This document shows, piece by piece, positions 21,257 to 56,870 of a stretch of DNA of 64,000 nucleotides (positions are counted from its first letter, which is position 1; each line of letters begins with the position of its first letter). Source of the DNA: Pratylenchus scribneri (taxonomy: Eukaryota > Nematoda > Chromadorea > Rhabditida > Pratylenchidae); contig JAQSEB010000050.1 in assembly GCA_030063045.1 (NCBI GenBank), positions 1 through 64,000 of the forward strand. Reading direction: 5' to 3'. The translations under genes were made by a program, and so were the position numbers. A model generated the notes under the pieces. It saw only the letters and a program-made list of their open reading frames with translations. It made no database searches and was not told the DNA's origin.

Positions 21257-22019
21257 AATGAGTTGGGGAAAATATAAAAAAATTTTAAAGCAGAAAAGAA
21301 CAAAATAAATTAATTTTAATAAATTTCTAAATTTTTAGAATTGATCAAAATAAACAATTTTGGAAATTTTTTGCTGCAAATTTGGCTGCTGGAGGTGCCG
21401 CCGGTGTTACATCCCTTTTGTTTGTTTATCCATTGGATTTTGCCCGAACTCGATTGGCAGCTGATATTGGAAAGTTAAAATTACTCTTTTAAATTTTTTT
21501 AAATTTTTAAATTGGTTAAATATGTAAAGAAAAAAAATGTTCTGATTTATTTTTATTAAAATATTAAAAAATATTCCATTTTTTGCAGGGCTGGTTCAAG
21601 GGAATTCACTGGCTTATTTGATTGCACTGCTAAAATTGTCAAGGCAAATGGTTTGGCTGGACTCTATCGGGGCTTTTTTGTCTCAGTGCAAGGTTTGGGT
21701 TTGGGCCTTCTATTTTTAATATTATTGTTTGCATTTTTTTAGGAATTTTTATCTACAGAGCTGCCTATTTTGGTTGTTATGATACAAGTAAGGCAATATT
21801 TCCCACAAATGATGGCAGAATGAATTTCTTTTTGGCATTTGCTATAGCACAGGTGAATAAAATTTTATATGATTTTAGATAATTTAAAAATTATGAAAGA
21901 TTTGCGAAAAATTTAAAAAAATTTTATATTAGGTTGTCACAATTTGTTCCGAAACATTGGCCTATCCTTGGGACACAGTGAGAAGACGAATGATGATGCA
22001 ATCCGGCAGAACTGATGCC

Positions 22020-22065
22020 AGTAGTAAGCAGACTCCGATTGGAGCCTCCCTTACCCCAGATATAA
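22020..22065 (+). repeat. Polinton left terminal inverted repeat
   Basis: 46 bp matching the complement of 46561-46606 with one mismatch (C/T at position 35). Preceded by target duplication GATGCC at 22014-22019. Confidence 0.95.
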
Positions 22066-23545: not shown

Positions 23546-24223
23546 TTGTATATCCATTTTATTATGATTGATACACAAATATTCGAAAATAAAGAATTAA
23601 AATTGCATCTCCCTTTTTCTATGATAATCAATGGTCCATCTTCTAGCGGAAAATCGACTTTCTTATTGAAATTCATTAATCAAGCCCAGCATTTAGTGGA
23701 TCCTCCACCGAAATCAATATTATATTGCTACGGAGAGTATAGTTCTACGGTCCCGGCATTACAAAAGGCAGGAATAGGAATATACTCTGGTGTTCCCTCA
23801 GAGGAAATTATTCAAAAACAACCGAAGCCGTCACTTATTATACTAGATGACTTACTTTACTCGATCAATGAGAGGTATCTCTCAGAGCTTACGACGAAAA
23901 AGTCGCATCATCAGAATTTTGGTTTCATTTTTGTCACGCAAAACCTATTCGAAAAGAAACTCAAAGTCGCCAGACAAAACTCAATGTACTTTGTCTTGAT
24001 GAGAGCGCCTAATAGTGCCTTAGCTATTAGAAATCTCGGACAACAATTATTCCCAAGACAGCTAGACTTTTTTCTCGATTCATATCGATATGCGACAAGG
24101 ATGCCCTACTCTTATCTATTCATTGACCTTCATCCGTCATCTGACCCAACTTTAAGACTGAGGACAAACATATTTAAGGACGACGAAAATCCTTATATCA
24201 TTTTCATTCCGAAAAATGTCTAA
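23546..24223 (+). CDS. ATP: FtsK/HerA (A32-like) DNA-packaging ATPase
   Basis: Pumps viral DNA into capsids. 225 residues; Walker A GPSSSGKST at residues 30-38 and Walker B SLIILDD at 96-102, with the arginine-rich C-terminal half usual for the family. A second in-frame ATG (MIDTQ, residue 7) is an equally good start. Its stop overlaps the next ATG by 8 bp, opening a cassette of four overlapping genes. This ATPase is one of the defining Polinton proteins; length and motifs look intact. Confidence 0.92.
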   Translation: MYIHFIMIDTQIFENKELKLHLPFSMIINGPSSSGKSTFLLKFINQAQHLVDPPPKSILYCYGEYSSTVPALQKAGIGIYSGVPSEEIIQKQPKPSLIILDDLLYSINERYLSELTTKKSHHQNFGFIFVTQNLFEKKLKVARQNSMYFVLMRAPNSALAIRNLGQQLFPRQLDFFLDSYRYATRMPYSYLFIDLHPSSDPTLRLRTNIFKDDENPYIIFIPKNV

Positions 24224-24584: not shown

Positions 24585-25206
24585 ATTTGTATTAGTCCCT
24601 GAAGACATTTACAAAGGCTTCACTTCGACCGATACTGGAAATATTAATCTCGATTATAGTAGAAGAATGCTGGAAAATGTAAAGAAAGAGAAAACAAATC
24701 CTGCAATAAAAAATGCTCGCTATAATCAGGAACTAAGGAGATATTTACATTTGAAAAAAGAACATGAGGATAAACCTGTCAAAGTGGAAATATCCGGAAC
24801 ATCGAATATAGAGGCAACCCCTCTTTCTAAACCAAAATCGAAGCAAATCAGTCATACTCCCAATGTTCCAGTCTCCCCAATGGTTGAGCTATCAAAAGAA
24901 TTTCTAACGAGAATTAATGCCAATCCAGAAAAATTTCAAGTGACATCAGAGGGAAGAATAAAAAATGAACACAATAAAATAATTGAAGGGAGCGACATAA
25001 AGAAATCAATAAATTGGATAATAACAGCCGGAAAAGGACTTAAAGCCGGTCCAAGACCAAAAGGAACTATAGTACTGGAGAATCAAATTAGAAGGGACGA
25101 TGTTTTAGTACAAATACTTGAAAATATGAAGAGGAATGATTCATTTCCATCGCCAATTGGTCAATCTACACCCAGATCAACATTTAGAGCGCAATTATGG
25201 AGATAG
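24571..25206 (+). CDS. Conserved Polinton protein upstream of integrase (unknown)
   Basis: 211 residues. The N-terminus MATNRFVLVPEDIYKGF and the NQELRRYLHLKKE segment (about 52-64) look like a protein commonly encoded immediately upstream of integrase in nematode and cnidarian Polintons; no enzymatic motif is visible. A proline-rich middle separates it from a C-terminal domain. It overlaps both neighbours by about 10-14 bp, consistent with coordinated expression of the ATPase-to-integrase cassette. Confidence 0.6.
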   Translation: MATNRFVLVPEDIYKGFTSTDTGNINLDYSRRMLENVKKEKTNPAIKNARYNQELRRYLHLKKEHEDKPVKVEISGTSNIEATPLSKPKSKQISHTPNVPVSPMVELSKEFLTRINANPEKFQVTSEGRIKNEHNKIIEGSDIKKSINWIITAGKGLKAGPRPKGTIVLENQIRRDDVLVQILENMKRNDSFPSPIGQSTPRSTFRAQLWR

Positions 25207-26297
25207 ACGATAAAGAAAAAATACTAAGACGTCTCTATAATGATCCAAACTATCCCTCGGCATTTGCTGGAGTTGATAGATTATGGACGGAAGCTAAAAA
25301 AGAAATTCCTAAAATTAAAAGAAAAGAAGTAAAGGAATGGCTGGAAAGAAGTCGGACATATACTATTCATCGACCAAGACGGGTAAATTTTCAACGACAG
25401 AAAACGATTCCATCAGGATATATGACAGATGTTCAAGTTGATTTAGCCGATTTACAAAAATTGTCAAAACAGAATGACGGAATTAATTATGCTCTAATTG
25501 CGATCGACGTTCTAAGCAAACAAGTGTTTGCTGTTCCTGTAAAGAATAAAAGTTCTAAGGATATGCTGACTGCTTTCAAGAAATTATTTGAACTTATGCC
25601 AATGAAACCCCATAGATTATTTTCCGATAAAGGAAAAGAATTTATAAATACTGAATTAAAAAATTATTTCAAAGAAAATGAAATTGAAAAATATACTCCA
25701 AATTCATCGACCGTTAAAGCTTCATTAGCGGAAAGAGCTATAAGAAATGTCAAACAGAGACTTTATCGTTATATGTCGCAAAAACAGACAGTCGAATGGG
25801 TTCCAGCTCTACCAAAAATTGTAAAAGGAATTAATAATTCCAAAAGTCGAATCCATGGAATGAAACCATCAGAAGTAAATTTTGGCAATGCTCAAGAAAT
25901 ATGGAAGAAAATGTACGGACCAATTGAAGATCTGATAAAGCCTATGAAAAAGAAACCAAAATACAAAAAGGATGATTTTGTTCGAATGAGTAAAAATAAA
26001 GGAATATTTCATAAAGGTTATTTTCCGTCATGGAGCGATGAAATTCTGGAAATTGATAAAGTCAAGACACAGAATCCAGTTCGATATAAAGTTAGAGATT
26101 ATCAAGGAGATTTATTCAAAGGTTATTTTTATGAACCCGATCTTCAGAAAGTCAGAAAGGATGAGACCACTACATATAGAATAGAGAAGATAATTAGAAC
26201 AAAGAAAGTAAAAGGAAAAACGAAATATTATGTTAAATTTTATGATTTCCCTAATCCTGAATGGATTGATGAATCCGATATTGCCCCCACTGATTAA
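25197..26297 (+). CDS. INT: Retroviral-type (c-int) integrase with chromodomain
   Basis: Inserts the element's ends into chromosomal DNA. 366 residues; ATG at 25197 overlaps the preceding gene. The rve core contains the catalytic triad D82 (VQVDLADL), D144 (LFSDKGKEF) and E179 (SLAERAIR), the last two 35 positions apart. The N-terminal part (RLYNDPNYPSAFAGVDRLW) is the typical Polinton integrase head, and residues about 328-366 form a chromodomain (KTKYYVKFYDFPNPEWIDES) likely to guide target choice. All key residues are present, in keeping with the clean 6-bp duplication. Confidence 0.95.
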   Translation: MEIDDKEKILRRLYNDPNYPSAFAGVDRLWTEAKKEIPKIKRKEVKEWLERSRTYTIHRPRRVNFQRQKTIPSGYMTDVQVDLADLQKLSKQNDGINYALIAIDVLSKQVFAVPVKNKSSKDMLTAFKKLFELMPMKPHRLFSDKGKEFINTELKNYFKENEIEKYTPNSSTVKASLAERAIRNVKQRLYRYMSQKQTVEWVPALPKIVKGINNSKSRIHGMKPSEVNFGNAQEIWKKMYGPIEDLIKPMKKKPKYKKDDFVRMSKNKGIFHKGYFPSWSDEILEIDKVKTQNPVRYKVRDYQGDLFKGYFYEPDLQKVRKDETTTYRIEKIIRTKKVKGKTKYYVKFYDFPNPEWIDESDIAPTD

Positions 26298-29061: not shown

Positions 29062-30369
29062 ATGACTACCTTTCACAAAATTGATAAGGATTCGCCGAAT
29101 GCCATCACAAATGCTCTATCTTTGTTTGATATCCCCAGCACAAATGTGACTGTTAGTTCTTCGGCATTTCGAGAATATTTGACCCTAAACCCCCTTTCGG
29201 ATATTCCATATCATTTTAAAATCCATGCAAGCACGAATTATATTGATCTATCAAAGTGTTATATCCTTATGGAATGCCGGATAAGAAAAAGAAATGAAGA
29301 AGGAAATCTTGAGAACCTACCTGCCAATGAAAATGTTTCTGTTTGTCAAATGATTGGACATACAATCTGGAAAAATTGTAGGGTTTCAATAAACGGTACC
29401 CAAGTATTCGAAGGAAATTCCCTGATGGCCTACAAAAGTATCTTTGACTATGAACTGACCTATCCAACAACTGCAAAAATTTCATATCTTAACGCCGCTG
29501 GTTATTATAAAGATGATGATACACAAATAGCTGGAGCGGGATTCGCTGCTCGAAAAAGACTCTTTGCTGAAAGCAAAACAGCTCAGTTCATGTCAAAATT
29601 GGATATTGATTTAGCAAATCAGCCAAAATATCTAGTAAATCAATGCGAAGTTGATATTGAGCTTCTTCCGAATGACAGCAATTTTGTAATAATCACAAGC
29701 ACAGATGATACATATCATTTTGAAATTACTGGATTAAAACTATATGTTAAGACACTTGAATTGGTGGACTCCCTCGCATTTGACATCAATAAAAAACTGG
29801 AATTACACCCGGCTAGATACCCAATGAGAAAAACATCTATAAAATCAATGTTCATAGGAGAAGGTCATACGGAATATAACGCATGTCTTTGGACTGATCA
29901 AGTGCCTCGTCGCGTAGTAATTGCTATGCTGAGTAATAAGGATTATGTTGGGGATCAAAAAACTAGTCCCTTCAATTTTAAACCATTCGGTCTACGAGAG
30001 ATTACTATTGTTGCCAACGGGACAAATCATCCATTAGCTCCATATTCATTAGATTTTCCGAATAAAAAATATATGAGAGCATTTCATGACACGATGGAAG
30101 CAATTGGTTATGCTGGAACACTAGAAAGTAACGGAATAGATTACAAATCTTATGGGGATGGATGGTGTTTCTTTGTCTTCAATCTTACAAGTTCAAAGGA
30201 GGACAATGGAGAAACATTTGATTTAATCAAGCCAGGTTCTTGCCTTACTAAAATGGCATTTAATACAGCTGTGCCTGCTCATGGAATTGTGTTAATTGCG
30301 ATGGGAGAAGTTGACTCTTTGTTGATGCTTGATAGGAACCGTACAATTACCACAGATATTACCGTTTGA
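29062..30369 (+). CDS. Major capsid protein (double jelly-roll, F54H12.2-like family)
   Basis: 435 residues from ATG at 29062 (an upstream in-frame ATG at 29047 overlaps the previous gene). The sequence belongs to the widespread Polinton family annotated in nematode genomes as F54H12.2-like: SSAFREYLTLNPLSDIPYHF near the start, FAARKRLFAESKTAQF, the ARYPMRKTSIKSMF segment, VPRRVVIAMLSN and a C-terminal GEVDSLLMLDRNRTITTDI. Predicted to build the icosahedral capsid with the ATPase and protease. The frame is intact. Assignment as the major capsid protein relies on family position and size; a direct fold match was not tested. Confidence 0.8.
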   Translation: MTTFHKIDKDSPNAITNALSLFDIPSTNVTVSSSAFREYLTLNPLSDIPYHFKIHASTNYIDLSKCYILMECRIRKRNEEGNLENLPANENVSVCQMIGHTIWKNCRVSINGTQVFEGNSLMAYKSIFDYELTYPTTAKISYLNAAGYYKDDDTQIAGAGFAARKRLFAESKTAQFMSKLDIDLANQPKYLVNQCEVDIELLPNDSNFVIITSTDDTYHFEITGLKLYVKTLELVDSLAFDINKKLELHPARYPMRKTSIKSMFIGEGHTEYNACLWTDQVPRRVVIAMLSNKDYVGDQKTSPFNFKPFGLREITIVANGTNHPLAPYSLDFPNKKYMRAFHDTMEAIGYAGTLESNGIDYKSYGDGWCFFVFNLTSSKEDNGETFDLIKPGSCLTKMAFNTAVPAHGIVLIAMGEVDSLLMLDRNRTITTDITV

Positions 30370-30422: not shown

Positions 30423-30881
30423 TCTATTCGATTATATTTTCAAAGATTACCAAATTATACAGAGTATATAAGATTAACAAAACAAGGGATGACATTCCCA
30501 GTTATCCTAACTTCTCCATTGCCTTCTTATTCGGAATTCCTATTGAAAAATCCGTCCTATTTAACGAACATAACAATATCAAATGAAAATACGACAAAGG
30601 ATATGATTGATCCTGTAGTGCAATATCCTTCGATCCCTTTGTGCAAAGAATCCCCCCATGAAAAATCGTTATATAGCAATATTTATTGCTATCTTTTATT
30701 GGCCTTGTATTTTTTGATTATTTGTTCTATAATTGCCTGGCAAATCCGGTGGGTATACAATTGGAGGGAAAATCAACGAAGAAGATATGAACACGGATCA
30801 AATCGACAAAATATTGAAATCGAACTCAGTGACCAAAAAATATTATCAGGGATGCTTCCCAAGCGATCAACCTCCTCATGA
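30420..30881 (+). CDS. Predicted single-pass membrane protein
   Basis: 153 residues. A hydrophilic N-terminal half with NIT and NTT glycosylation sequons, one transmembrane helix at about residues 87-108 (YCYLLLALYFLIICSIIAW) and a basic, Arg-rich cytoplasmic tail. It has its own TATA/GATAAAT leader and overlaps the protease gene in another frame by about 95 bp. No family recognised. It could be a virion or cell-surface membrane protein; its size is well below that of the fusogens reported in some nematode Mavericks. Confidence 0.55.
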   Translation: MSIRLYFQRLPNYTEYIRLTKQGMTFPVILTSPLPSYSEFLLKNPSYLTNITISNENTTKDMIDPVVQYPSIPLCKESPHEKSLYSNIYCYLLLALYFLIICSIIAWQIRWVYNWRENQRRRYEHGSNRQNIEIELSDQKILSGMLPKRSTSS

Positions 30882-31227
30882 ACTCAGTTATCCGGCTTCG
30901 CTCATATTCAATCTCGATAAATCTAATCGTGAAGGCTCTCATTGGATAGGAGTGTTTATGACGGGGCCGAAGAAAGAAGTAAATTATTTTGATAGCTATG
31001 GAATGGAACCCTTAGGAAATATAAATTTTCTTAAAAAATATTCAAAAATTATTATGAACCGTTACCCCTACCAGTCTCTATATTCGGACGTTTGTGGCCA
31101 TTATTGTATCACCTTTATCTATTTTTTATCCCTAGGCTATACATTCGACCGATTTATAAAAATGTTAGATTCAAATATAAATACAGATTTATTCGTAAAA
31201 ACTATTGTAAAAGAAATGATTAAATAA
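30787..31227 (+). CDS. PRO: Adenovirus-type cysteine protease (Ulp1-like)
   Basis: Cleaves capsid precursors during virion maturation. 146 residues from the ATG at 30787, chosen because MNTDQIDKIL is the usual family start; an earlier in-frame ATG exists at 30733. Catalytic residues are in order: His52 (EGSHWIG), Asp69 (NYFDSYG), Gln96 (YPYQ) and Cys103 (SDVCGHYC). The QGCFPSDQPP segment after residue 20 is also conserved in Polinton proteases. The frame is intact. It overlaps the 3' end of the membrane-protein gene. Confidence 0.9.
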   Translation: MNTDQIDKILKSNSVTKKYYQGCFPSDQPPHELSYPASLIFNLDKSNREGSHWIGVFMTGPKKEVNYFDSYGMEPLGNINFLKKYSKIIMNRYPYQSLYSDVCGHYCITFIYFLSLGYTFDRFIKMLDSNINTDLFVKTIVKEMIK

Positions 31228-32426: not shown

Positions 32427-32807
32427 TTAATGTTTTGGTGAAATTAAATCAGTCATACCAATGTTGATCCCCAAGCAGTCATCGCAAAATCCGATCGCCA
32501 AATGTAAACGTCCTTCGGATCGGTGAAACTTCTTCTTGCTCTGGAAGAGTGCATTGCCACAATCGGAACATAGTTTGAAGATCAACACACTTTTATTTTT
32601 GTAGAGCTTCCAAAGCGGCTGGGAGAAGTCGATCTTCTTCTCTTCTGGTATCTCATTGTTTTCTGGCTTTTTTGGATCCTCATTGACCTCGATTTTCTTC
32701 TCTTCATCCTTGATCACTTTCTGAATTTTAGGAGAGGAAGATTTCTTTCGGTCATAGGGAGATTTCGGGGATTTTGGGGCTTTGGGAGATTTTGGGCTTG
32801 GGGACAT
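32427..32807 (-). CDS. SPK-repeat and CxxC zinc-ribbon protein
   Basis: 126 residues. The N-terminus is a chain of SPKSPKAPKSPKSP units like the SPKK minor-groove DNA-binding motifs of histone tails. An acidic/lysine linker follows, then a C-terminal zinc ribbon with CSDC near residue 80 and CDDC near 107. Divergent to the PAZ gene, sharing a GGGCGTG/TATA intergenic region. Probably a DNA-associated accessory or regulatory protein; no named family recognised. Confidence 0.65.
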   Translation of the reverse strand: MSPSPKSPKAPKSPKSPYDRKKSSSPKIQKVIKDEEKKIEVNEDPKKPENNEIPEEKKIDFSQPLWKLYKNKSVLIFKLCSDCGNALFQSKKKFHRSEGRLHLAIGFCDDCLGINIGMTDLISPKH

Positions 32808-33065: not shown

Positions 33066-33599
33066 ATGGTTCTCTTCGCCCAAGCAATTGCCGACTTTTT
33101 AAAATGCCGTGTAAAAGATCTTCGCGATCGACTTAATCATCCAGAGGAACGAAAGAAGGTAAGTTTAAAATTCTTTGGCTGTAATTTGACAACAACCTAC
33201 AAAGATCGAAATGGCGAGAAACATACATTTTCCTTTAGCGGACTTACCGAAAAAGGAGCAGATGAAATGCCAGCTTTTGGCAAATTATCAAAGGTATTCA
33301 ATTGTTCAGTGACAAAATATTTTTACGCCAAACATCGAATTCGACTCTTATTCCCATATAATCACTGCGCTGTGAAAAAATTCGTTAATGGAGAAGACCA
33401 CTATTATCCACTTGAATTACTCGAATTGAACAACGACGAAGTTTTGGATACAACGAAAATTTTTCTACCCTCGAAGAATAAAGAAAATTCAACAAAATCC
33501 AATTCCCCAAAACTGCTCATGGATGAATCTCACGAGGAGGACTTCAAAGAATGTGTATCACACGATTGGGGACGCAACTTATTCACACAAAGATGGTAA
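33066..33599 (+). CDS. Standalone PAZ-domain protein (no PIWI), candidate small-RNA binder
   Basis: 177 residues, single exon. Residues about 3-122 match the Argonaute/Dicer PAZ fold in order: an entry helix (FAQAIADFLKC), a beta segment with TTTYKDRNGEKHTFSFSGL, then SVTKYFYAKHRIRLLFPYNH, which corresponds to the SVAEYFK.KY...L.YP..PC block of Argonautes, and a terminal HYYPLELLEL (Argonaute YLPLEVC). PAZ domains bind the 3' end of small RNAs. Neither the Argonaute N domain upstream nor MID/PIWI downstream is present; the remaining 55 residues are a polar tail. It shares the element's GC-box promoter, so it is expressed as an element gene. A decoy or suppressor of host RNA interference is the leading inference. 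Divergence makes 3'-end binding unproven. Confidence 0.75.
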   Translation: MVLFAQAIADFLKCRVKDLRDRLNHPEERKKVSLKFFGCNLTTTYKDRNGEKHTFSFSGLTEKGADEMPAFGKLSKVFNCSVTKYFYAKHRIRLLFPYNHCAVKKFVNGEDHYYPLELLELNNDEVLDTTKIFLPSKNKENSTKSNSPKLLMDESHEEDFKECVSHDWGRNLFTQRW

Positions 33600-33650
33600 A
33601 TCGCCCGGGGCGGCGGCGGCGGCGGGGCGGCGGCCGGGGCCCAGGCCAAA
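33600..33650. other. Extreme GC tract after the PAZ stop codon
   Basis: About 45 bp of CGG/GGC repeats (33604-33648) in otherwise strongly AT-rich DNA, starting immediately after the PAZ stop codon. Could be a structured 3' UTR element, a terminator-like hairpin or an assembly artefact. Confidence 0.6.
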
Positions 33651-33899
33651 GGTGGACTTATACATATTTTTTCTTAAATTTTAATAAAAATAAGCTTCAT
33701 TTTTTACAAATATCATCTTCTTCTTCTTAATTTTTTAGATTTGTCATCTTCTTATTCTTAATATTGTAAAATTTCTCCTTAAAATGACTACTTCTTAACA
33801 TTAATTTTTTAATTATATCATCTTCTCAAGACTAGTTTTTAATCAAAAATTGTATTTACAATAAAAATATTTATTACAATTACAATAAATGAATAAAAA

Positions 33900-38201: not shown

Positions 38202-39326
38202 ATGTGGAAAATTCCTTTCCTCGGAGAATCCTTCATAAAACGATTTAAACCTCAATCAATTGATGACTTGACTGACTTCTTAAATTTTATATTTACTCCC
38301 TCCTTATTTGCATTCTTTGCAATACTCATCTCCGCAAAACAATATTTTGGATCGCCAATTGAATGCTTAATTCCGGCCCACTTTAATTCGGCTTGGAAAG
38401 ATTACTCCCATGAATACTGTTTCACGCATAAAACTTATTTTGTTAAAATGGATCAAGATATCCCTCCATTAAAAGACATCAGAAAATACAATCAAATTCA
38501 CTACTATCAATGGATCCCAATTATTTTGGCACTTCAATCCGTCATTTTCTACCTTCCTTCCGTCATCAAACAATGTTTGAACAGGACCGTAGGTCTCAAC
38601 GAAATTATTTCATCATTCGATGATATGTTTTGGCAAACATATCCAACTCACAAATTGAATGAAATTGCGTCATTCGTCAAAATGGTATCAGATCGGACGA
38701 AAAAATACAGGTCATTATGTTATATTCTCTTATTCCTTAACCTCATATCAATATTGAATATAACTTCCATATTCATCATAGTAAAATGTATCACAATACT
38801 CAATATTTTATTTAATTTTGCCTTTTTAACTTATATAATAGGTAAGAAAGACATATTCTGGGGATATAGAATTTTAAGATTCTCATTTTATGGTGAAGAA
38901 GAAGAAGTAAAATTCTTTCCTTATATTACATTTTGTGATATTACTTTTAAGGAAATGGGGTCAAATCATGATCATACTTTACAATGTATTCTCCCTATCA
39001 ATATACTCAATGAAAAAGTTTTCATGTTTATTTGGTTCTTTCTCATATCCCTATTCTTTGTTAATATAATCTATTTCATCAAAAGTCTGATATCCTTATT
39101 TGTTTTTCGAAATTTTCAAATTAGGCAATGTCTAAAAGGATTTAATGTTGCTAATGTAAATCAATTTATTAAAGAATACCGATTTGACTATAATATAATT
39201 CTACAAATCATAAGCAATAGGTACGGTATCCCTATCGCTTGCGAATTTATTCAATCGCTTTTTACTATCCATCAACCTATTCATCAACCAGAAATCATTC
39301 GACAATGCCAAGTCCGAAATGAATAA
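38202..39326 (+). CDS. Innexin (gap-junction channel protein) carried by the element
   Basis: 374 residues, one uninterrupted exon. Innexin marks: four membrane segments (about 29-46, 105-122, 172-212, 272-296), the YYQW signature at 101-104 before segment 2, first-loop cysteines C55 and C73 in the IPAHFNSAWKDYSHEYC context, and second-loop cysteines C245 and C262 in FCDITFKEMGSNHDHTLQC. Innexins form intercellular gap junctions and hemichannels. Length is normal for a nematode innexin, where host genes carry introns; the lack of introns and the shared GGGCGGAGTC promoter point to a viral gene rather than inserted host DNA. Innexin homologues (vinnexins) are known in polydnaviruses of wasps. 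All key residues are intact. Confidence 0.92.
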   Translation: MWKIPFLGESFIKRFKPQSIDDLTDFLNFIFTPSLFAFFAILISAKQYFGSPIECLIPAHFNSAWKDYSHEYCFTHKTYFVKMDQDIPPLKDIRKYNQIHYYQWIPIILALQSVIFYLPSVIKQCLNRTVGLNEIISSFDDMFWQTYPTHKLNEIASFVKMVSDRTKKYRSLCYILLFLNLISILNITSIFIIVKCITILNILFNFAFLTYIIGKKDIFWGYRILRFSFYGEEEEVKFFPYITFCDITFKEMGSNHDHTLQCILPINILNEKVFMFIWFFLISLFFVNIIYFIKSLISLFVFRNFQIRQCLKGFNVANVNQFIKEYRFDYNIILQIISNRYGIPIACEFIQSLFTIHQPIHQPEIIRQCQVRNE

Positions 39327-46560: not shown

Positions 46561-46606
46561 TTATATCTGGGATAAGGGAGGCTCCAATCGGAGTCTGCTT
46601 ACTACT
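46561..46606 (-). repeat. Polinton right terminal inverted repeat
   Basis: Complement of the left end, followed by GATGCC at 46607-46612. Homology between the two ends stops after 46 bp, short for a Polinton, where repeats of over 100 bp are common. Confidence 0.95.
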
Positions 46607-46909
46607 GATGCCATTTATAAAAGTAAGGAATTATTCTTTGATTCTTAAAATTTTTTAAATATTTTTAAATATTTGATAAAAAAAAAGAATTTATAAATTT
46701 TATTTATTTAGATTCATTGGACTGCGCATTGAAAACAATAAGCGGAGAAGGCCTCTTTAAAGGAATGTTCAAAGGGAATTTGTCCAATGTAAAATATTAT
46801 TCAATATTTATTATTTTCATTATTTTTTTCTCCTTAATAGATTTATCGTGGCATCGGTGGCGCATTAGTTCTTGTGCTTTATGATGAAATGAGAAATTTT
46901 TTCAAATAG

Positions 46910-48720: not shown

Positions 48721-51700
48721 TTTCTGGAATGAAAATCAAAACAAATTCATTCCCGAATGAAATCAGAACAAATTCAAAACATTTTAAAACAGAACAACAA
48801 AACATTTAAATCAGAACAACAAAACTTTTAAAATCAGAACAACAAAACATATAAAATCAGAACAATTAAACATTTAAAACCAGAACAACAAAACATTCTT
48901 AAAATCAGAACAACAAAACATTTAAAATCAGAACAACAACAAAACATTTAAAACCAGAACAACAAAACATTCTTAAAATCAGAACAACAAAAGATTTAAA
49001 ACCAGAATAACAACAAAACATTTAAAATCAGAACAACAACAAAACATTTAAATTCAGAACAACAACAAAACATTTAAATCAGAACAACAACAAAACATTT
49101 TTTAAATCAGAACAACAACAAAACATTAAAATCAGAACAACAAAAAACATTTAAAATCAGAACAACAAAACATTTAAAATCAGAACAACAACAAAACATT
49201 TAAATCAGAACAACAACAAAACATTTTTTAAATCAGAACAACAACAAAACATTAAAATCAGAACAACAAAAAACATTTAAAATCAGAACAACAAAACATT
49301 TAAAATCAGAACAACAACAAAACATTTTTTTAAATCAGAACAACAACAAAACATTTAAAATCAGAACAACAACAAAACATTTAAAACCAGAACAACAAAC
49401 ATTCTTAAAATCAGAACAACAAAACATTTAAAATCAGAACAACAAAACATTTAAAATCAGAACAACAAAACATTTAAAATCAGAACAACAACAAAACATT
49501 AAAATCATAACAACAAAAAACATTTAAAATCAGAACAACAAAACATTTAAAATCCGAACAACAACAAAACATTTTTAAAATCAGAACTACAACAAAACAT
49601 TTTTAAAATCAGAACAACAAAACATTTAAAATCAGAACAACAACAAAACATTTAAAATCAGAACAACAACAAAACATTTAAAACCAGAACAACAAACATT
49701 CTTAAAATCAGAACAACAAAACATTTAAAATCAGAACAACAAAACATTTAAAATCAGAACAACAACAAAACATTAAAATCATAACAACAAAAAACATTTA
49801 AAATCAGAACAACAAAACATTTAAAATCAGAACAACAACAAAACATTTTTAAAATCAGAACTACAACAAAACATTTTTAAAATCAGAACAACAAAACATT
49901 TAAAATCAGAACAACAACAAAACATTTAAAATCAGAACAACAACAAAACATTTAAAACCAGAACAACAAAACATTCTTAAAATCAGAACAACAAAACATT
50001 TAAAACCAGAACAACAAAACATTCTTAAAATCAGAACAACAAAACATTCTTGAAATCAGAACAACAACAAAACATTTAAAACCAGAACAACAAAACATTC
50101 TTAAAATCAGAACAACAACAAAACATTTAAATCAGAACAACAACAAAACATTTTTAAAATCAGAACAACAACAAAACATTTAAAACCAGAACAACAAAAC
50201 ATTCTTAAAATCAGAACAACAAAAGATTTAAAACCAGAATAACAACAAAACATTTAAAATCAGAACAACAACAAAACATTTAAATTCAGAACAACAACAA
50301 AACATTTAAATCAGAACAACAACAAAACATTTTTTAAATCAGAACAACAACAAAACATTAAAATCAGAACAACAAAAAACATTTAAAATCAGAACAACAA
50401 AACATTTAAAATCAGAACAACAAACATTCTTAAAATCAGAACAACAAAACATTTAAAATCAGAACAACAAAACATTTAAAATCAGAACAACAAAACATTT
50501 AAAATCAGAACAACAACAAAACATTAAAATCATAACAACAAAAAACATTTAAAATCAGAACAACAAAACATTTAAAATCAGAACAACAACAAAACATTTT
50601 TAAAATCAGAACTACAACAAAACATTTTTAAAATCAGAACAACAAAACATTTAAAATCAGAACAACAACAAAACATTAAAATCATAACAACAAAAAACAT
50701 TTAAAATCAGAACAACAACAAAACATTTAAAATCAGAACAACAACAAAACATTTAAAATCAGAACAACAACAAAACATTTAAAATCAGAACAACAACAAA
50801 ACATTTAAAACCAGAACAACAAAACATTCTTAAAATCAGAACAACAAAACATTTAAAACCAGAACAACAAAACATTCTTAAAATCAGAACAACAAAACAT
50901 TCTTGAAATCAGAACAACAACAAAACATTTAAAATCAGAACAACAAAACATTTAAAATCAGAACAACAACAAAACATTTTTAAAATCAGAACTACAACAA
51001 AACATTTTTAAAATCAGAACAACAAAACATTTAAAATCAGAACAACAACAAAACATTTAAAATCAGAACAACAACAAAACATTTAAAACCAGAACAACAA
51101 AACATTCTTAAAATCAGAACAACAAAACATTTAAAACCAGAACAACAAAACATTCTTAAAATCAGAACAACAAAACATTCTTGAAATCAGAACAACAACA
51201 AAACATTTAAAACCAGAACAACAAAACATTCTTAAAATCAGAACAACAACAAAACATTTAAATCAGAACAACAACAAAACATTTTTAAAATCAGAACAAC
51301 AACAAAACATTTAAAACCAGAACAACAAAACATTCTTAAAATCAGAACAACAAAAGATTTAAAACCAGAATAACAACAAAACATTTAAAATCAGAACAAC
51401 AACAAAACTTTTAAATTCAGAACAACAACAAAACATTTAAATCAGAACAACAACAAAACATTTTTTAAATCAGAACAACAACAAAACATTAAAATCAGAA
51501 CAACAAAAAACATTTAAAATCAGAACAACAAAACATTTAAAATCAGAACAACAAAACATTTAAAATCAGAACAACAACAAAACATTTTTTTAAATCAGAA
51601 CAACAACAAAACATTTAAAATCAGAACAACAACAAAACATTTAAAACCAGAACAACAAACATTCTTAAAATCAGAACAACAAAACATTTAAAATCAGAAC

Positions 51701-54700
51701 AACAAAACATTTAAAATCAGAACAACAACAAAACATTAAAATCATAACAACAAAAAACATTTAAAATCAGAACAACAAAACATTTAAAATCCGAACAACA
51801 ACAAAACATTTTTAAAATCAGAACTACAACAAAACATTTTTAAAATCAGAACAACAAAACATTTAAAATCAGAACAACAACAAAACATTTAAAATCAGAA
51901 CAACAACAAAACATTTAAAACCAGAACAACAAACATTCTTAAAATCAGAACAACAAAACATTTAAAATCAGAACAACAAAACATTTAAAATCAGAACAAC
52001 AACAAAACATTAAAATCATAACAACAAAAAACATTTAAAATCAGAACAACAAAACATTTAAAATCAGAACAACAACAAAACATTTTTAAAATCAGAACTA
52101 CAACAAAACATTTTTAAAATCAGAACAACAAAACATTTAAAATCAGAACAACAACAAAACATTTAAAATCAGAACAACAACAAAACATTTAAAACCAGAA
52201 CAACAAAACATTCTTAAAATCAGAACAACAAAACATTTAAAACCAGAACAACAAAACATTCTTAAAATCAGAACAACAAAACATTCTTGAAATCAGAACA
52301 ACAACAAAACATTTAAAACCAGAACAACAAAACATTCTTAAAATCAGAACAACAACAAAACATTTAAATCAGAACAACAACAAAACATTTTTAAAATCAG
52401 AACAACAACAAAACATTTAAAACCAGAACAACAAAACATTCTTAAAATCAGAACAACAAAAGATTTAAAACCAGAATAACAACAAAACATTTAAAATCAG
52501 AACAACAACAAAACATTTAAATTCAGAACAACAACAAAACATTTAAATCAGAACAACAACAAAACATTTTTTAAATCAGAACAACAACAAAACATTAAAA
52601 TCAGAACAACAAAAAACATTTAAAATCAGAACAACAAAACATTTAAAATCAGAACAACAAACATTCTTAAAATCAGAACAACAAAACATTTAAAATCAGA
52701 ACAACAAAACATTTAAAATCAGAACAACAAAACATTTAAAATCAGAACAACAACAAAACATTAAAATCATAACAACAAAAAACATTTAAAATCAGAACAA
52801 CAAAACATTTAAAATCAGAACAACAACAAAACATTTTTAAAATCAGAACTACAACAAAACATTTTTAAAATCAGAACAACAAAACATTTAAAATCAGAAC
52901 AACAACAAAACATTAAAATCATAACAACAAAAAACATTTAAAATCAGAACAACAACAAAACATTTAAAATCAGAACAACAACAAAACATTTAAAATCAGA
53001 ACAACAACAAAACATTTAAAATCAGAACAACAACAAAACATTTAAAACCAGAACAACAAAACATTCTTAAAATCAGAACAACAAAACATTTAAAACCAGA
53101 ACAACAAAACATTCTTAAAATCAGAACAACAAAACATTCTTGAAATCAGAACAACAACAAAACATTTAAAATCAGAACAACAAAACATTTAAAATCAGAA
53201 CAACAACAAAACATTTTTAAAATCAGAACTACAACAAAACATTTTTAAAATCAGAACAACAAAACATTTAAAATCAGAACAACAACAAAACATTTAAAAT
53301 CAGAACAACAACAAAACATTTAAAACCAGAACAACAAAACATTCTTAAAATCAGAACAACAAAACATTTAAAACCAGAACAACAAAACATTCTTAAAATC
53401 AGAACAACAAAACATTCTTGAAATCAGAACAACAACAAAACATTTAAAACCAGAACAACAAAACATTCTTAAAATCAGAACAACAACAAAACATTTAAAT
53501 CAGAACAACAACAAAACATTTTTAAAATCAGAACAACAACAAAACATTTAAAACCAGAACAACAAAACATTCTTAAAATCAGAACAACAAAAGATTTAAA
53601 ACCAGAATAACAACAAAACATTTAAAATCAGAACAACAACAAAACTTTTAAATTCAGAACAACAACAAAACATTTAAATCAGAACAACAACAAAACATTT
53701 TTTAAATCAGAACAACAACAAAACATTAAAATCAGAACAACAAAAAACATTTAAAATCAGAACAACAAAACATTTAAAATCAGAACAACAAAACATTTAA
53801 AATCAGAACAACAACAAAACATTTTTTTAAATCAGAACAACAACAAAACATTTAAAATCAGAACAACAACAAAACATTTAAAACCAGAACAACAAACATT
53901 CTTAAAATCAGAACAACAAAACATTTAAAATCAGAACAACAAAACATTTAAAATCAGAACAACAACAAAACATTAAAATCATAACAACAAAAAACATTTA
54001 AAATCAGAACAACAAAACATTTAAAATCCGAACAACAACAAAACATTTTTAAAATCAGAACTACAACAAAACATTTTTAAAATCAGAACAACAAAACATT
54101 TAAAATCAGAACAACAACAAAACATTTAAAATCAGAACAACAACAAAACATTTAAAACCAGAACAACAAACATTCTTAAAATCAGAACAACAAAACATTT
54201 AAAATCAGAACAACAAAACATTTTTAAAATCAGAACAACAACAAAACATTTAAAACCAGAACAACAAAACATTCTTAAAATCAGAACAACAAAAGATTTA
54301 AAACCAGAATAACAACAAAACATTTAAAATCAGAACAACAACAAAACATTTAAATTCAGAACAACAACAAAACATTTAAATCAGAACAACAACAAAACAT
54401 TTTTTAAATCAGAACAACAACAAAACATTAAAATCAGAACAACAAAAAACATTTAAAATCAGAACAACAAAACATTTAAAATCAGAACAACAAACATTCT
54501 TAAAATCAGAACAACAAAACATTTAAAATCAGAACAACAAAACATTTAAAATCAGAACAACAAAACATTTAAAATCAGAACAACAACAAAACATTAAAAT
54601 CATAACAACAAAAAACATTTAAAATCAGAACAACAAAACATTTAAAATCAGAACAACAACAAAACATTTTTAAAATCAGAACTACAACAAAACATTTTTA

Positions 54701-56870
54701 AAATCAGAACAACAAAACATTTAAAATCAGAACAACAACAAAACATTAAAATCATAACAACAAAAAACATTTAAAATCAGAACAACAACAAAACATTTAA
54801 AATCAGAACAACAACAAAACATTTAAAATCAGAACAACAACAAAACATTTAAAATCAGAACAACAACAAAACATTTAAAACCAGAACAACAAAACATTCT
54901 TAAAATCAGAACAACAAAACATTTAAAACCAGAACAACAAAACATTCTTAAAATCAGAACAACAAAACATTCTTGAAATCAGAACAACAACAAAACATTT
55001 AAAATCAGAACAACAAAACATTTAAAATCAGAACAACAACAAAACATTTTTAAAATCAGAACTACAACAAAACATTTTTAAAATCAGAACAACAAAACAT
55101 TTAAAATCAGAACAACAACAAAACATTTAAAATCAGAACAACAACAAAACATTTAAAACCAGAACAACAAAACATTCTTAAAATCAGAACAACAAAACAT
55201 TTAAAACCAGAACAACAAAACATTCTTAAAATCAGAACAACAAAACATTCTTGAAATCAGAACAACAACAAAACATTTAAAACCAGAACAACAAAACATT
55301 CTTAAAATCAGAACAACAACAAAACATTTAAATCAGAACAACAACAAAACATTTTTAAAATCAGAACAACAACAAAACATTTAAAACCAGAACAACAAAA
55401 CATTCTTAAAATCAGAACAACAAAAGATTTAAAACCAGAATAACAACAAAACATTTAAAATCAGAACAACAACAAAACTTTTAAATTCAGAACAACAACA
55501 AAACATTTAAATCAGAACAACAACAAAACATTTTTTAAATCAGAACAACAACAAAACATTAAAATCAGAACAACAAAAAACATTTAAAATCAGAACAACA
55601 AAACATTTAAAATCAGAACAACAACAAAACATTTTTTTAAATCAGAACAACAACAAAACATTTAAAATCAGAACAACAACAAAACATTTAAAACCAGAAC
55701 AACAAACATTCTTAAAATCAGAACAACAAAACATTTAAAATCAGAACAACAAAACATTTAAAATCAGAACAACAACAAAACATTAAAATCATAACAACAA
55801 AAAACATTTAAAATCAGAACAACAAAACATTTAAAATCAGAACAACAACAAAACATTTTTAAAATCAGAACTACAACAAAACATTTTTAAAATCAGAACA
55901 ACAAAACATTTAAAATCAGAACAACAACAAAACATTTAAAATCAGAACAACAACAAAACATTTAAAACCAGAACAACAAAACATTCTTAAAATCAGAACA
56001 ACAAAACATTTAAAACCAGAACAACAAAACATTCTTAAAATCAGAACAACAAAACATTTAAAACCAGAACAACAAAACATTCTTAAAATCAGAACAACAA
56101 AACATTTAAAACCAGAACAACAAAACATCTTAAAATCAGAACAACAAAACATTCTTGAAATCAGAACAACAACAAAACATTTAAAACCAGAACAACAAAA
56201 CATTCTTAAAATCAGAACAACAACAAAACATTTAAAACCAGAACAACAAAACATTTAAAACCAGAACAACAAACATTCTTAAAATCAGAACAACAAAACA
56301 TTTAAAATCAGAACAACAAAACATTTAAAATCAGAACAACAACAAAACATTAAAATCATAACAACAAAAAACATTTAAAATCAGAACAACAAAACATTTA
56401 AAATCAGAACAACAACAAAACATTTTTAAAATCAGAACTACAACAAAACATTTTTAAAATCAGAACAACAAAACATTTAAAATCAGAACAACAACAAAAC
56501 ATTTAAAATCAGAACAACAACAAAACATTTAAAACCAGAACAACAAAACATTCTTAAAATCAGAACAACAAAACATTTAAAACCAGAACAACAAAACATT
56601 CTTAAAATCAGAACAACAAAACATTTAAAACCAGAACAACAAAACATTCTTAAAATCAGAACAACAAAACATTTAAAACCAGAACAACAAAACATTCTTA
56701 AAATCAGAACAACAAAACATTCTTGAAATCAGAACAACAACAAAACATTTAAAACCAGAACAACAAAACATTCTTAAAATCAGAACAACAACAAAACATT
56801 TAAATCAGAACAACAACAAAACATTTTTAAAATCAGAACAACAACAAAACATTAAAATCAGAACAACAGA
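48721..56870 (+). repeat. AACAAC-type satellite array with higher-order structure
   Basis: About 8.15 kb of 20-28 bp units such as AAAATCAGAACAACAAAACA with variable (AAC)n and T-run length. A marker variant (ACCAGAATAA) recurs at 49001, 50233, 51363, 52470, 53601, 54303 and 55434, mostly about 1.13 kb apart. The variant AAAACTTTTAAATTC occurs in alternate blocks (51405, 53640, 55473), implying an approximately 2.24-kb dimer. Apparent minus-strand proteins rich in CFVVLILRMFCC are translations of the repeat and not genes. Confidence 0.95.

Follow-up and report, generated by a model that had tools for sequence, protein, structure and literature searches.

A stand-alone Argonaute-type PAZ gene in a nematode Polinton, predicted to encode a small-RNA 3'-end binder

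The Polinton and its PAZ gene

The window analysed here is a stretch of 64,000 nucleotides of the genome of Pratylenchus scribneri (contig JAQSEB010000050.1, positions 1 to 64,000 of the forward strand). It contains a Polinton in which a free-standing PAZ protein is encoded between a divergent gene for a small CxxC protein and a convergent gene for a type B DNA polymerase. The inverted repeat of this element, as detected, is 47 nt long (22019-22065 and 46561-46607, with one mismatch); when it is read one base in, the element has AG...CT ends and is flanked by a 6-bp GATGCC duplication, and the element bounds are therefore placed at 22020 and 46606. The features are as follows.

22014 to 22019, no strand: target-site duplication GATGCC, left
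22020 to 46606, no strand: Polinton, 24,587 bp, ends 5'-AG...CT-3', identified by its terminal inverted repeats and target-site duplication
22020 to 22065, forward strand: left terminal inverted repeat, 46 bp, from inverted-repeat comparison
23564 to 24223, forward strand: A32-like packaging ATPase (Pfam Pox_A32, E 8.1e-5, 22.6 bits against a cut-off of 22.8)
25197 to 26297, forward strand: rve integrase with a weak chromodomain-like match at its end (Pfam rve, E 1.2e-7, 32.3 bits against a cut-off of 32.6)
29062 to 30369, forward strand: major capsid protein (MCP) candidate, 435 aa, from its place and size
30787 to 31227, forward strand: Ulp1/adenain-like protease (Peptidase_C48, E 0.0071, and Peptidase_C5, E 0.033, both below cut-off)
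32427 to 32807, reverse strand: small CxxC...CxxC protein, encoded divergently next to PAZ, with relatives at 19 of 20 loci
33066 to 33599, forward strand: stand-alone Argonaute-type PAZ gene, 177 aa, open from ATG to TAA
33900 to 37325, reverse strand: type B DNA polymerase, in convergent orientation to PAZ (Pfam DNA_pol_B_2, E 8.9e-40, above cut-off)
38202 to 39326, forward strand: innexin gene within the Polinton (Pfam Innexin, E 5.4e-67)
46561 to 46606, reverse strand: right terminal inverted repeat of 46 bp with one mismatch
46607 to 46612, no strand: target-site duplication GATGCC, right

The hallmarks of Polintons are terminal inverted repeats, 5'-AG ends, a 6-bp target-site duplication, a type B polymerase, an integrase, a protease and an ATPase. 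The location of the PAZ gene in a Polinton is confirmed, as the element agrees with known Polintons/Mavericks in its inverted repeats, 6-bp duplication, polymerase, integrase, protease and ATPase, whereas it differs from them by its PAZ and innexin genes. The scores of the ATPase and the integrase are only just below the Pfam cut-offs and that of the protease is about 4 bits below, and a Pfam scan of the MCP candidate gives no match to a capsid family. No report of PAZ or innexin in Polintons was found in the literature searched (titles, the beginnings of abstracts, and passages). Relatives of the innexin occur at 10 of 20 chosen Polinton loci, and this gap-junction gene in Polintons may merit separate study. 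To the right of the Polinton, at 48760-56868, there is an 8.1-kb satellite array with a period of about 25-26. The 22-nt nematode SL1 leader has 227 exact occurrences, and its reversed control has 0, which supports the nematode origin of the window.

The PAZ reading frame consists of a conserved core (approximately residues 1-125) and a variable tail (residues 126-177). Inside it there is a GTAAGT donor (33159) and a TTTCCTTTAG acceptor (33238), 80 nt apart, and excision of these 80 nt would alter the reading frame; the unspliced reading is considered the probable one, because homology and purifying selection (see below) continue across this stretch. Immediately 3' of the stop codon, at 33600-33656, the AT-rich element has a tract of 86% GC with CGG/GGC runs. 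A TATAWAW motif is present within 200 nt upstream of PAZ at 13 of 17 loci, but this TATA-like motif was given no weight, as by a rough estimate it is near chance in such AT-rich DNA.

The PAZ family match and the 3'-end pocket

Taken as a single sequence, the PAZ match of the protein is marginal. The Pfam PAZ domain (PF02170) is matched by residues 27-125 with an E-value of 1.1e-4 and 22.6 bits, which is below the cut-off of 28.8 bits, and when compared with the PDB by phmmer, residues 5-119 align with the PAZ domain of Drosophila AGO1 (1r4k; E 5.6e-4). For the family-level comparisons, 23 diverse relatives of the 177-aa protein, picked among the matches in the source genome, were aligned (alignment A1). 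All 23 match Pfam PAZ at E<=1, the best at 1.3e-10, and the profile of this family matches 27 distinct Argonaute sequences of the PDB, with E-values from 6.5e-10 to 1.7e-6, the next match being one ribosomal protein at E 3.8. Likewise, the hhalign comparison of the family with an Argonaute PAZ profile (based on five PAZ exons of the host together with human and fly AGO1) gives a probability of 98.2 and an E-value of 2.7e-14. The Argonaute-type PAZ identity is accepted because these family-level matches are strong, though the single sequence is marginal, and membership of the PAZ family is, by such profile comparisons, shown. The AlphaFold2 model of the protein, computed from one sequence only, has a pLDDT of 36.8, too low for a usable model of the fold.

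The single-sequence match to AGO1 begins, at residue 5, in the Argonaute segment that precedes the Pfam PAZ range, and the match of the family profile begins at position 27-32. The earlier start of the former weakly favours an Argonaute source of the domain. The PAZ domain of Dicer belongs to the same Pfam domain, but a Dicer origin was rejected, since no Dicer chain is present among the 28 PDB matches of the family profile. The polymerase gene begins 300 bp beyond the end of the PAZ frame, and the MID and PIWI domains of an Argonaute are not found: there is no match to either in the PAZ frame, nor in the 19 further reading frames of the region (of at least 92 aa, a subset of the frames of that size) that were scanned with Pfam. 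The original prediction, which aligned the first 120 residues with the PAZ fold and noted the lack of MID and PIWI, agrees with the phmmer range, the family profile, the hhalign score and the Pfam scan of these frames.

The residues of the Argonaute PAZ pocket that holds the 3' end are named in passages of PMC5896489. Twelve of these were scored by the residue class of human and fly Argonautes, with M273 and AGO2 H336, also named in those passages, left out, in 27 aligned PAZ sequences (26 with Polinton context and L035). Three stretches of the window protein correspond to such residues.

33198 to 33200, forward strand: Tyr45, which corresponds in position to hAGO1 His269 (Tyr, His, Phe or Trp in 27 of the 27 aligned sequences)
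33318 to 33335, forward strand: Tyr85 to His90 (YFYAKH), corresponding in position to hAGO1 Tyr309, Lys313 and Tyr314, and to hAGO2 Tyr311, Arg315 and His316
33402 to 33413, forward strand: YYPL, in which Tyr113 corresponds to hAGO1 Tyr336 and Pro115 is invariant in A1

By class, H269 and Y314 are kept in all 27 sequences, Y309 and Y336 in 26, K313 in 24, R275 (as Lys or Arg) in 20 and Y277 in 14, with Tyr replacing His269 in 22 of the 27. Not kept in place are F292, P293, Q295 and K333 (0 of 27 each) and T335 (2 of 27); the column one past F292 has Tyr, Phe or His in 25 of 27, so part of the loss of F292 may be due to the alignment. When an AGO2 sequence is altered at R315 and H316, its score against the family profile is 31.2 bits compared with 39.9 bits for AGO2, which is 8.7 bits lower, suggesting that the R/K-H pair of the family aligns with R315 and H316. 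In the copies of BEL elements described below (L068 and L069), Arg is found at the place of Y314 and Val or Leu at the place of Y336.

It would seem, therefore, from these columns that the family has mostly retained the residues in contact with the 3'-OH and the last phosphate but not those on the base side, a pattern that is partly supported. The full set of 12 residues is no better than random columns (mean 0.51 compared with 0.40 in the 74 other columns; a mean at least this high arises in 3,684 of 20,000 random sets), which is not significant. A subset of six columns gives 0.89 compared with 0.38 (29 of 20,000), but was picked after seeing the table and is unfit as a test; pocket conservation as a statistical proof was rejected, as the six-column result failed to hold over all 12 residues. 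When compared with the PAZ domain of animal Argonautes (PF02170; human AGO1, 1si2, and Drosophila AGO1, 1r4k), the Polinton protein aligns over about 95-115 residues, with the phosphate and 3'-OH residues mostly kept, whereas it differs in being free-standing, without MID or PIWI, and in the five pocket residues that are not kept in place.

Occurrence, selection and origin

The source genome, which carries many Polinton copies, holds at least 150 matches to the PAZ protein of the window; 247 first-look candidates were obtained, of which 150 were scored. Twenty loci (L009-L028) were chosen across the identity range and 10 kb was taken around each. At every one of them at least two other Polinton proteins are encoded beside PAZ, namely relatives of the polymerase (POLB) at 17, of the CxxC protein at 19, of the MCP candidate at 12 and of the innexin at 10. 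The gene order around PAZ varies, as its neighbour may be POLB, innexin, PRO or the ATPase block, and the MCP identity to the window copy is as low as 48% at some of these loci; PAZ has therefore accompanied the elements while they diverged deeply and their gene order changed. Polinton genes are adjacent to, or not more than 20 kb from, 22 of the 23 A1 members, the exception being L035, on a 36-kb contig, without Polinton genes nearby.

Of 150 PAZ matches, 106 have a listed match to POLB or the ATPase not more than 20 kb away, and the stretches within this distance account for 3.8% of the genome. Among the remaining 44, at least two are also in Polintons: at C15:77695 (L050) PAZ has a divergent ATPase on one side and POLB on the other, and at C110:1258784 (L045) it adjoins relatives of the ATPase and of o22988. 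PAZ is found within 20 kb of 120 of the 150 POLB matches listed (out of 162) and of 117 of the 150 listed ATPase matches, L063-type PAZs included in both; near-identical copies are counted separately in these linkage figures. No PAZ was found within 20 kb of the other 30 listed POLB matches. Unless divergent copies escaped the search, elements can therefore do without the gene.

PAZ and ATPase matches repeat every 20,144 bp or so at C63:11727-62414 and every 38,409 bp or so at C138:32168-119486, as if these were head-to-tail Polinton arrays or an assembly artefact. The end of the L063 PAZ (residues 73-116 approximately) is matched at about 50-61% by many short frames of some 50-70 aa, for example at C90:767403, C118:2608 and C42:931104. 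Searches of IMG/VR with PAZ, MCP or POLB queries gave no relatives, the phage records gave no PAZ relatives, and PADLOC gave no match.

The PAZ core is under purifying selection. The dN/dS values, calculated according to Nei-Gojobori for the first 125 codons, are between 0 and 0.30 in 15 of 17 pairs (some sharing a sequence); for the other two pairs the value is not computable, one being without synonymous change and one being saturated. In 15 pairs the tail could be compared with the core, and its dN/dS is above that of the core in 13, equal in 1 and below in 1. The low values of the core fit any conserved function.

PAZ is also found in a second class of elements. Pfam PAZ is matched within two open frames, one of 3606 aa and one of 2338 aa, and in L069 the PAZ match follows DUF5641 (E 2.5e-19) within one 499-aa piece. 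Peptidase_A17, the peptidase of Pao-type retroelements, shares strand, reading frame and open-frame length with a PAZ match at seven places.

C234: PAZ/Peptidase_A17 frame of 2338 aa, DUF5641 also in frame
C46:518440: PAZ/Peptidase_A17 frame of 3606 aa, DUF5641 also in frame
C61: PAZ/Peptidase_A17 frame of 3139 aa, DUF5641 also in frame
C30: PAZ/Peptidase_A17 frame of 2793 aa
C46:1606657: PAZ/Peptidase_A17 frame of 3296 aa
C223: PAZ/Peptidase_A17 frame of 3303 aa
C46:1066824: PAZ/Peptidase_A17 frame of 2644 aa

The first three match the L069 PAZ at E 4.4e-28 or better (C234 being L069 itself), and the PAZ matches of the last four are weaker (E 1e-6 to 4e-5). The PAZ frame of L067 (C68:407218) follows matches to Peptidase_A17 and DUF5641 on the same strand, at distances of about 5 kb and 3 kb respectively, and is in another frame. 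A PAZ-like match is also present in a 2446-aa open frame at C110:695537, with no adjoining Peptidase_A17 among the matches listed. In these BEL/Pao retroelements the PAZ-like stretch is inside a long polyprotein frame, whereas in the Polinton it is a separate gene. The presence of PAZ in both Polintons and BEL/Pao frames points to its uptake by elements with unrelated replication.

The origin of the domain was addressed with a tree of 41 rows and 88 columns, comprising 30 mobile PAZs and 11 human, fly and host rows, each of the 8 host rows being one exon assumed to belong to an Argonaute. The branch that splits the mobile PAZs from the others has values of 92/95, is not starred, and separates long branches. 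In the best tree the Polinton PAZs are not one clade, as the BEL sequences and L067 are inside, but a single Polinton clade is not rejected (p-AU 0.185). The tree fits an old acquisition of PAZ by mobile elements and would be compatible with one capture as well as with several. A recent host fragment or pseudogene was ruled against by the conservation, the dN/dS values and this tree.

The claim that a Polinton encodes a stand-alone PAZ is borne out by an element with inverted repeats, target-site duplication and polymerase, and by the conservation of the gene across elements. The earlier account overlooked the PAZ in BEL/Pao frames of the same genome. The evidence also speaks against the gene being a recent piece of the host: it sits with Polinton genes at 20 of 20 chosen loci, its core is under purifying selection, the tree places the mobile PAZs apart from host, fly and human Argonautes, and neither the absence of a PAZ match nor an unconserved fragment of a host Argonaute is what the profiles and conservation indicate.

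Proposed function and its alternatives

In nematodes, mobile elements are held in check by small RNAs, and the siRNAs made by nematode RdRPs would be the obvious target for a small-RNA 3'-end binder. The best reading, towards which the balance tips modestly, is that the Polinton protein is a captured binder of this kind, predicted to blunt host silencing. An Argonaute PAZ domain would have been acquired by Polintons long ago and retained as a separate gene, and its product would hold the 3' ends of host small RNAs. Being free of MID and PIWI, it would sequester these RNAs or compete with the host Argonautes, as proposed in the original prediction, which is partly supported, and the outcome would be weaker silencing of the element, to the benefit of the element. 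A small-RNA trap or competitor is regarded as the best explanation because the domain is under selection, because domains that could use a guide are not found with it, because the residues for the phosphate and the 3'-OH look kept, and because it occurs in two element classes. A DNA element and a retroelement have small-RNA silencing in common and not a polymerase, which supports the anti-silencing reading.

It is conceivable, though unlikely, that PAZ binds the 3' ends of ssDNA or RNA in replication or packaging of the element, for example in end protection or protein-primed synthesis, and not small RNAs. A POLB relative is within the same 10 kb at 17 of the 20 chosen loci, the ligand may differ from that of Argonautes as the base-side residues are not kept, and DNA molecules have been shown to bind to the PAZ domain of AGO2, according to passages of a review (PMC6361761). 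This proposal agrees less well with the variable gene order, in which PAZ is not tied to one replication gene, with the 30 of 150 listed POLB matches near which no PAZ was found, and with the BEL/Pao frames, whose replication differs. It is rather unlikely that PAZ and its N-terminal segment act as a dominant-negative protein decoy, occupying partners of Argonaute or Dicer, or loading factors, without holding RNA. Such a decoy would explain why the AGO1 match starts at residue 5, ahead of the Pfam range, why 5 of the 12 scored pocket residues are not kept, and why the tails are acidic, Cys/His-rich or Trp-ended, as protein-binding tails may be, but it has no need for the phosphate and 3'-OH residues, which are among the best-kept columns, and in 13 of 15 pairs the tail is under weaker constraint than the core. 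That the element itself uses small RNAs, with PAZ delivering or stabilising them to regulate its own genes or to exclude competing elements, is very improbable: competition between elements is plausible with many Polinton copies in one genome, but the frames scanned encode no MID or PIWI partner, and nothing that would use a guide was found. A functionless recent Argonaute fragment or a chance resemblance, to which the single-sequence score under the Pfam cut-off would correspond, is hardly credible given the family-level E-values, the conservation and dN/dS, and the branch (92/95, not starred) that sets the mobile PAZs apart.

When the trapping of small-RNA 3' ends is extended to both element classes, the capture of a lone Argonaute PAZ would be a general counter-silencing strategy of nematode Polintons and BEL/Pao elements, reached by separate capture or by exchange, a generalization that is evenly balanced between being right and being wrong. 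Like the known viral suppressors of RNAi (such as the dsRNA-binding protein of IIV-6 and viral RNase III), the Polinton PAZ would act on the small-RNA pathway of the host, but those two proteins bind or cut dsRNA. No description of a lone PAZ encoded by a Polinton or a virus was found in the literature searched (titles and the beginnings of abstracts, and passages of PMC11071308, PMC8288018, PMC6361761 and PMC8947103, with few subscription papers covered), and within that scope the original statement that no Polinton gene of this kind is known to have been described is unchanged.

The proposed function bears on how large virus-like elements persist at high copy number despite small-RNA silencing. 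If it is true, the presence of PAZ in two classes of element that are unrelated would answer this directly and testably, and the protein would represent a previously undescribed kind of RNAi suppressor with a new mechanism, in which a domain of the host defence is turned against its source.
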